DNA from: Acetobacter indonesiensis
GTDB lineage: Bacteria; Pseudomonadota; Alphaproteobacteria; Acetobacterales; Acetobacteraceae
Assembly (NCBI RefSeq): GCF_000963945.1
Contig: NZ_BAMW01000057.1
Location: forward strand, 1 to 64,000
Direction of reading: 5' to 3'
DNA: 64,000 nt
Shown: in pieces, positions 34,366-35,570 of the stretch
Layout: every line of letters begins with the position of its first letter
Numbering within the stretch: position 1 is the first letter of the stretch
Notes under the pieces: generated by a model
The model's database searches: none
Told to the model about the DNA's origin: nothing
What the model saw: only the letters and a program-made list of their open reading frames with translations
Program-made: the position numbers and the translations under genes

Positions 34366-34697
34366 AAACAACCCCAAATCTTAACCAGAAATGCCCAATA
34401 CTTCAAAAAAATGTAATCCTTACCTTATATAACAGAAAATATCACAACATCCCAATTCTTAATTTAATAATATTTTTCTTATTTTTTACTTTATATTTTT
34501 ATAATTTTTCGAATTTTTACAATATTAATTCCATCAATTCATGATGTGTAAATGTATTTATTTTTTGGTAATCTCTTGGTAACTTTCATAAACAACATAA
34601 ATTTGATTTTTAAAAAGAAGCCTAATTTTCTTATGTTTACAGAAAAAGTGACTTATTTTTTCTATTGGTATGCGCAAAACACATGCCTCGCCACCCG

Positions 34698-34712
34698 ACA
34701 ACCGTAGGTTGT
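34698..34712. promoter_or_regulatory. Dyad 1, ACAACC-N3-GGTTGT
   Basis: Perfect 6-bp inverted repeat with spacer GTA, about 105 bp before the regulator start. It shares both half sites with dyad 2, 72 bp downstream centre to centre, so the pair looks like two operators for one dimeric protein. Confidence 0.55.
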
Positions 34713-34767
34713 AATATCTTTTTCTTCTTTTATAAAAAGCTATAAATCAATGGTTTTATTATGTTAG

Positions 34768-34786
34768 ACACAACCAAGGGTTGTGT
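34768..34786. promoter_or_regulatory. Dyad 2, ACACAACC-N3-GGTTGTGT
   Basis: Perfect 8-bp inverted repeat with spacer AAG, ending 31 bp before the regulator ATG. The core is identical to dyad 1. Its place near the start codon suits repression or autoregulation. As RNA it would be a hairpin with only a 3-nt loop and no U-run, so an operator is more likely than a terminator. Confidence 0.6.
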
Positions 34787-34817
34787 TTCTCATCCTCTTT
34801 AGGAAAGGTTAACAGGC

Positions 34818-35570
34818 ATGCGTATCCTATTTGCAGAGAGTGATCGCTCATCTTGTGAAAAAGTGCTCGCAGCCTTTGCTGATGCAAAACTTGAAGTGGA
34901 TATTGCAGATTCCGGGCACCATGCCATAGAAATGCTGCGCAATTATCCTTACGGAGCCGCTATTATTGACCTTATCCAACCAGATATGGATGGATATGAT
35001 ATTATAAAAAAATTAAGATCTATAAAAATAGAAACCCCTATCATTATTGTTTCTTCAATTGATAAACCTTACGCAAAAATAAAAGCTCTTTCCACCGGAG
35101 CAGATGATTACATTAGCAATAAATTTGACGCTGATGAACTTGTTGCACGCATCAAGGCTCTTCTTCGCCGCACCAACAACTATACACAGCCTGTTGTACA
35201 GGTCGGTAATCTTGTTCTTGATTTCAATACACAATCCGTTTCCGTTGATGGTCAAATGGTCCATCTGACAGGGAAAGAGTTTGCGATTCTTGAGCTTCTT
35301 GCCCTTAGAAAAGGAGCGTCTCTTTCAAAAGAGACGCTCCTTAATCATCTTTATGGCGGACGGGATGAGCCTGATATCAAGATTATTGATGTTTTTGTCT
35401 GCAAATTGCGCAAAAAACTTCATGCAGCTGGAGCAAGAGACCTTATTGCGACCATATGGGGCAGAGGGTATGTCCTGAACGACCCTAAACCCATACAAAA
35501 AATTTCTATCTCTTCTGCAAAACCTTACATAATAGACAACAAGACACAGGTTTTTTCTTTAAACGATTAG
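34818..35570 (+). CDS. CtrA-like response regulator with degenerate receiver
   Basis: 250 residues, OmpR/PhoB class. The DNA-binding half is clearly CtrA type: VHLTGKEFAILELLALRKG, LLNHLYGGRDEPDIKIIDVF, CKLRKKL and WGRGYVLNDP align closely with Caulobacter CtrA. In the receiver, the phospho-acceptor Asp51 is kept, but the acidic pair at 8-9 is Ser-Asp, and the conserved Lys of the TKPF motif is Asn101 (SNKF). Signalling by phosphorylation is therefore probably altered or lost. A ~23-residue tail after NDP ends FSLND, without the Ala-Ala end of Caulobacter CtrA that serves ClpXP. Codons are AT-rich. AGGAAAGG precedes the ATG. A canonical CtrA probably exists elsewhere; this would be a paralogue. 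Confidence 0.9.
   Translation: MRILFAESDRSSCEKVLAAFADAKLEVDIADSGHHAIEMLRNYPYGAAIIDLIQPDMDGYDIIKKLRSIKIETPIIIVSSIDKPYAKIKALSTGADDYISNKFDADELVARIKALLRRTNNYTQPVVQVGNLVLDFNTQSVSVDGQMVHLTGKEFAILELLALRKGASLSKETLLNHLYGGRDEPDIKIIDVFVCKLRKKLHAAGARDLIATIWGRGYVLNDPKPIQKISISSAKPYIIDNKTQVFSLND
35311..35342. repeat. Perfect 15-bp inverted repeat inside regulator gene
   Basis: Arms AAGGAGCGTCTCTTT (35311-35325) and AAAGAGACGCTCCTT (35328-35342) are exact reverse complements with a 2-nt spacer. It lies in the codons for RKGASLSKETLLNH, a stretch conserved in CtrA proteins, so the dyad arose by synonymous choice or insertion without harming the frame. As mRNA it would be a very stable hairpin in mid-gene. 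Confidence 0.95.

Follow-up and report, generated by a model that had tools for sequence, protein, structure and literature searches.

Textbooks present CtrA as the master regulator of the cell cycle in Alphaproteobacteria, and regulation through phosphorylation and proteolysis is regarded as its essence. The 64-kb stretch of Acetobacter DNA analysed here (the window) carries a ctrA gene whose product has an altered receiver and lacks an Ala-Ala end, which raises the question of how such a CtrA is controlled. From sequence comparisons and a structure model, we consider it likely that it is an orphaned sole CtrA with a pseudo-receiver, probably acting as a phosphorylation-independent DNA-binding dimer that is controlled through its supply. 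The features concerned are collected in Table 1.

Table 1. Features of the ctrA locus in the window
Feature	Position	Strand	Basis or remark
ctrA ORF, ATG start, 250 aa	34818-35570	+	the one CtrA orthologue detected in this genome (Acetobacter)
Pseudo-receiver domain, residues 1-118	34818-35171	+	PF00072 match, residue table, pLDDT 82-95 per ten-residue block
Codon AGT, Ser8, replaces second metal-binding acidic residue	34839-34841	+	residue table
Codon GAC, Asp51, phospho-acceptor position, retained	34968-34970	+	residue table
Codon AAT, Asn101, replaces conserved Lys	35118-35120	+	residue table
Winged-helix DNA-binding domain, ~residues 124-222	35187-35483	+	PF00486
C-terminal tail, 28 residues ending SLND, no Ala-Ala, mostly low model confidence	35484-35567	+	
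Inverted repeat ACAACC-AAG-GGTTGT, proposed ctrA operator	34770-34784	.	conserved in Acetobacter
Second exact copy ACAACC-GTA-GGTTGT	34698-34712	.	72 bp further upstream

The ctrA product matches the Pfam families Response_reg (5e-19) and Trans_reg_C (1.3e-21), and among NCBIfam families it scores best with CtrA (NF045991, 282.7 bits; runner-up family 149.7), a score below the 350-bit equivalog cut-off of that model, which just 1 of 14 control genomes passed. The active-site positions read E7, S8, D51, S79 and N101, with the motif S100-N101-K102-F103, so that this CtrA lacks the full set of receiver active-site residues (two acids, D, T/S, K). Codons and residue table agree in this with a preliminary description of the locus, which had reported Ser8, a retained Asp51 and Asn101 within SNKF. 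It had also called the DNA-binding domain nearly unchanged, and indeed this domain keeps 51 of the 59 positions that are conserved at 95% or more in 42 CtrAs from genomes with ChpT, against 30 of 52 in the receiver. The extra tail of ~20 residues that had been described stands when measured against Caulobacter CtrA, which is ~231 aa long, but in the 68 ChpT-positive genomes the median CtrA length is already 245 aa. An Ala-Ala C-terminus is the ClpXP-type degradation signal of CtrA; the protein was correctly said to lack it, ending in ND, and it occurs in 47 of 68 ChpT-positive rows vs. 0 of 21 Acetobacter rows. The region from 34378 to 35570 is AT-rich, with a GC content of 0.40 in ctrA and 0.27 upstream of it, where a AGGAAAGG stretch is found, vs. 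0.555 in the window; the ctrA genes of A. pasteurianus and A. pomorum are similarly AT-rich (0.41-0.42).

Despite these changes, the architecture of the protein is that of an OmpR/PhoB response regulator, with a receiver, a winged helix and an alpha4-beta5-alpha5 dimer face. Residues D96, D97, E107, R111 and R118, invariant across all 21 Acetobacter rows, and K87, found in 20 of them, are what we take to be the salt bridges of this face in OmpR/PhoB regulators. The AlphaFold model is confident for receiver and winged helix (mean pLDDT 83; residues 225-250 below 50), and the top Foldseek match in the PDB was DNA-bound PmrA (TM 0.69), with DNA-bound CosR at 0.67; most other full-length matches reached TM 0.35-0.51, presumably owing to different domain orientations. 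When the pseudo-receiver definition set out in a passage of Bourret et al. 2025 (PMC12632262) is applied, the residue table and the model identify the receiver as a pseudo-receiver, since two of the five active-site residues (D8 and K101) are missing while the receiver fold is modelled and matched. In this respect the protein resembles HP1043, ChxR and CosR, orphan OmpR/PhoB-type regulators without phospho-site residues; its model matches DNA-bound CosR, as noted, and HP1043 (2hqr) at rank 32. In the literature, ChxR and HP1043 are said to dimerise or to act without being phosphorylated (PMC3960148, PMC12632262, PMC8345958). These regulators belong to other orthologous families; in the present case the change can be compared between members of a clade, side by side with the absence of a kinase pathway.

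To what extent that pathway is absent was examined with sequence profiles. PF10090 (ChpT) matched none of 25 genomes of this and the same genus, 14 of 16 genomes from other families of the class and 185 of 299 genomes of the family, in the last case often weakly. Because of these weak matches, a family-specific ChpT profile was built from 8 proteins and applied to 13 control genomes, none among its sources. All 13 controls scored 138-236 bits with it, and four of seven doubtful genomes 108-181 bits; the remaining 58 of 75 genomes, among them 55 suspected negatives including this one, reached at most 43.3 bits, in frames of at least 456 aa, the size of histidine kinases. The published Caulobacter CckA model gave no family genome above its cut-off and left orthologues and paralogues unseparated, and a family CckA profile was therefore made from 10 proteins. 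With this profile, 11 of 12 controls scored 449-720 bits and the twelfth, G116, 393 bits; for 49 of 50 ChpT-negative genomes the top score did not exceed 420 bits, about the level reached by secondary kinases of the controls (up to 408.8 bits). ChpT-negative G127, which is 84% complete, does have a CckA (619 bits), and G065, at 419.5 bits slightly above the controls' secondary kinases, might conceivably hold a diverged one. Orthologous CckA was found neither in this genome, whose best match (E 1.2e-92) and other matches are paralogue-level hybrid kinases only, nor in the 22 same-genus genomes searched.

With neither ChpT nor orthologous CckA found in this genome, normal CckA-ChpT phosphorylation is not expected, as the preliminary description had supposed. 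Within the sensitivity of the profiles, the double absence suggests that the CckA-ChpT phosphorelay was lost in this lineage. That chpT and cckA are seldom detected in Rhodospirillales has been noted before, in passages that leave it doubtful whether the genes are lost or divergent (PMC8116508, PMC2877005); the residue changes in the receiver raise the likelihood of a real loss. In two ChpT-positive genomes, G064 and G211, chpT lies ~6 kb from ctrA, which adjoins a FliI-type ATPase gene, and in G211 genes for CheA and CheR stand between ctrA and chpT. A relative of the ATPase gene still adjoins ctrA in G012, G017 and G062, but no longer in the window, G001 or G021. The CtrA of the window thus resembles that of Caulobacter and other Alphaproteobacteria as an orthologous, single-copy OmpR/PhoB-type regulator with a nearly unchanged DNA-binding domain, and departs from the CckA-ChpT-CtrA system in its undetected partners, its pseudo-receiver, its C-terminus and its gene neighbour. 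The Ala-Ala relay contact described in part of PMC9981736 was discarded as a marker, the helix-1 positions being too variable even in ChpT-positive genomes.

The receiver active site was then tabulated in 142 genomes, 68 ChpT-positive and 74 ChpT-negative; these residue counts exclude G126 and G072 (incomplete CtrA) and named records without a genome number. ChpT status follows from the PF10090 and family-profile results, for some ChpT-negative genomes from the family-wide PF10090 search alone, and rests on weak matches in G026 and G115; the incomplete genomes G079 and G127 were scored as negative although the gene may fall in a gap, as was G203 although G058 of the same genus has ChpT. Among ChpT-positive genomes, Asp51 and Lys101 were each present in 68 of 68, E7-D8 in 67 of 68 and the whole phospho-site set in 67 of 68, whereas the whole set was found in just 9 of 74 ChpT-negative genomes. 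Residue 51 in the latter is Glu (37), Asp (21), Thr (6), His (3), Ser (3), Arg (2), Asn (1) or Ala (1), so that its replacement is most often Glu. Counted by genus, 50 of 51 ChpT-positive genera are intact throughout, while the 33 ChpT-negative ones comprise 27 with no intact site, 1 mixed and 5 intact; Glu51 occurs in 17 of the 33 (counting g1). No significance is claimed for the association between ChpT and receiver, because few independent events underlie it on the tree: a sign test over 2-3 independent pairs gives p = 1. Judged from these residues, the degeneracy of the receiver is a phenomenon of the clade. Glu51 is found in the three nearest tree relatives of this CtrA (G001, A. senegalensis and A. 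tropicalis), and its own Asp51 may have been retained or may have arisen by reversal.

The retention of Asp51 bears on the strongest alternative, namely that the receiver is still phosphorylated there, with altered chemistry, by another histidine kinase or by acetyl phosphate. Asp51 and Ser79 both remain, and this makes weak phosphorylation from another donor conceivable; the genome also encodes hybrid kinases with HisKA, ATPase and receiver domains, four same-genus genomes without detected ChpT (G008, G009, G023 and G070) carry the full phospho-site set, and Brilli et al. 2010 suggest in one passage that other phosphotransferases may substitute for ChpT (PMC2877005). However, the second metal-binding acid, Lys101 and the Gly at T+1 have all been lost from this receiver, and position 51 holds Glu, Thr, Ser, Asn or His in other Acetobacter. 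We therefore regard phosphorylation at Asp51 as unlikely.

A further alternative is that the gene is decaying toward loss, as in relatives without ctrA. No CtrA-level match was obtained in G011, G015, G019, G069, G117 and G140, and the gene is both AT-rich relative to the window (GC 0.40 vs. 0.555) and among the less conserved ones of its neighbourhood: its identity to the ctrA of G001 is 61%, and one of the neighbours compared lies lower (58%). Against this, the ORF is intact, the DNA-binding domain and the dimer face are conserved, the upstream repeat is maintained and related pairs show low dN/dS. In 77 Acetobacter pairs with measurable dS, the median dN/dS was 0.113 for the receiver and 0.075 for the DNA-binding domain, compared with 0.150 and 0.144 in 275 ChpT-positive pairs. 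The Acetobacter pairs showed no excess of receiver over DNA-binding-domain dN relative to the ChpT-positive pairs (ratio 1.17 vs. 1.81). These values stand for related pairs, as pairs involving the ctrA of the window itself are mostly saturated, being too distant from their relatives; relaxed constraint on the receiver, tried as an explanation, found no support in dN/dS on this basis. Because dN/dS is low in the measurable pairs, the altered Acetobacter receivers are, by this measure, under purifying selection and not freely decaying, and decay of ctrA appears improbable.

The presence of another CtrA was examined as well. In this genome (3.41 Mb, 100% complete) neither a protein search nor the CtrA model found a second CtrA-type protein: the next-best protein match has 39% identity over residues 40-223, and the model scores 282.6 bits at ctrA and 174.8 at the next locus. 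Named genome records yielded relatives of this CtrA at 29 loci, of which 21 are from Acetobacter (19 named to species and 2 MAGs; 52-64% identity), a set from which the records nearest to this genome may be missing. In a tree of 117 of 173 rows, with duplicates and some ChpT-positive rows left out, the Acetobacter CtrAs group in a single clade of 26 rows (support 100/100), in which our protein stands beside those of A. senegalensis and A. tropicalis (100/85). The neighbours of ctrA, named by eye, are identical in G001 of the same genus and the same but for a thiD-like gene in G021, with partial synteny in G012, G017, G048 and G062. Domain content, best-scoring model, phylogeny and synteny thus all identify the gene as orthologous to ctrA of its relatives. 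The preliminary description had proposed a paralogue that may compete for the sites of a canonical CtrA, a notion invited by the intact DNA-binding domain next to an odd receiver; it had called for a search of the same genome and for a tree, and since these returned a single CtrA, a place among the ctrA genes of other Acetobacter and synteny with G001 and G021, with no second CtrA-level match per same-genus genome among the matches listed, that proposal is hardly credible any longer, unless an unassembled gap hides a second ctrA. Of the two findings that the description had named as counting against it, the lack of another ctrA is borne out, and normal phosphorylation of the protein looks unlikely.

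We then return to the proposed orphaned, supply-controlled CtrA and to the region from which its supply would be governed. The repeat ACAACC-N3-GGTTGT has no exact copy in the window besides the two upstream of ctrA, and three more exact sites occur in the genome, two within reading frames and the third within a 596-aa kinase frame. Of 40 Acetobacter ctrA genes (duplicate species included), 36 have a relaxed form within 300 nt of the start, vs. 1 of 2000 shuffled upstream regions and 11 of 133 other upstream regions. Both arms vary between Acetobacter species (L051-L079, upstream of ctrA), and related repeats precede ctrA in Acidisoma and a few ChpT-positive genera. These features make the repeat a candidate control site of ctrA. 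At up to one mismatch the genome holds 27 sites vs. 10 for a reversed control; however, 17 of 20 near-match sites examined fall inside reading frames and several lie in a prophage-like region, and no regulon of the repeat was therefore derived from them. That region, on C160 of G000 (L285, L286) and prophage-like by eye, carries a cluster of near-match repeats, most of them inside reading frames. Classic CtrA autoregulation was likewise set aside, as TTAA-N7-TTAA occurs neither in the 64-kb window nor in the 443-nt stretch upstream of ctrA.

Taken together, we propose that the CckA-ChpT phosphorelay was lost in the lineage and CtrA was orphaned. Its receiver would then have become a pseudo-receiver, with the second metal-binding acid and the catalytic lysine gone and the fold and dimer-face residues kept, and unphosphorylated CtrA would dimerise and bind CtrA-type DNA sites. 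Its activity would be set mainly by the amount made, as phosphorylation and probably the Ala-Ala degron are gone, with synthesis perhaps controlled through the conserved inverted repeat. According to one review, a Glu in place of the acceptor residue or constitutive dimerisation may make pseudo-receiver proteins active, and such proteins may be regulated through their synthesis or degradation (PMC12632262).

Because 16 ChpT-negative genomes have ctrA and no FlhA match (in G072 ctrA is only an incomplete frame) and G011 has FlhA and no ctrA, CtrA is not tied to flagella, and its remaining role in those 16 genomes cannot, going by gene content, be flagellar control. In this genome a single FlhA was found, at 565 bits against a family cut-off of 772. 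In G000 (C177, L298), G001, G007 and G070 the sole FlhA is a second, more distant one at 552-565 bits, while many other same-genus genomes have one of 818-845 bits; a replacement of the flagellar system in these four is possible.

Glu for Asp51 is a known phosphomimetic substitution. The Caulobacter laboratory alleles CtrA(D51E) and ctrA(D51E) delta3-omega find a natural counterpart in the 37 of 74 ChpT-negative genomes with Glu51, in relatives of our CtrA though not in the protein itself, which has Asp51. Part of one report describes G1 arrest under ethanol or salt stress in Caulobacter with a stable active allele carrying D51E (PMC5189948). In A. senegalensis, A. tropicalis and G001, Glu51 and an end other than Ala-Ala are combined naturally, and, by analogy, CtrA could for this reason hardly have the same replication-blocking role there. 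More tentatively, we suggest for the acetic acid bacteria that loss of CckA-ChpT made CtrA constitutive, with Glu51 as a phosphomimetic in about half of the ChpT-negative genera, and that in Acetobacter the acceptor was freely substituted and the degradation signal lost, giving a stable active CtrA with control at the repeat in the ctrA promoter; such a CtrA would now be harmless because regulon and timing have changed and control has moved to the promoter. This is possible, if somewhat doubtful, and the ChpT-negative genera outside Acetobacter are for the most part inferred to be acetic acid bacteria. No earlier report of the acceptor-site loss with frequent Glu replacement was found in the full-text literature, a search mostly outside subscription journals. 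A clade that keeps CtrA without its phosphorelay, often with Glu51 fixed, would offer a natural experiment on the dismantling of a phospho-switch.

Two further observations concern the receivers of relatives. The CtrAs of G108, G063 and G136 (L165, L166, L169), in which ChpT was not detected, form a separate, very divergent group (branch length 2.96) with Arg or Ser at position 51 and an altered N-terminus. The CtrA of A. tropicalis (L062:6001-6720, L025) lacks 12 aligned receiver residues without a frameshift, and the gap lies around strand 4 and helix 4 and takes in the position of Ser79.
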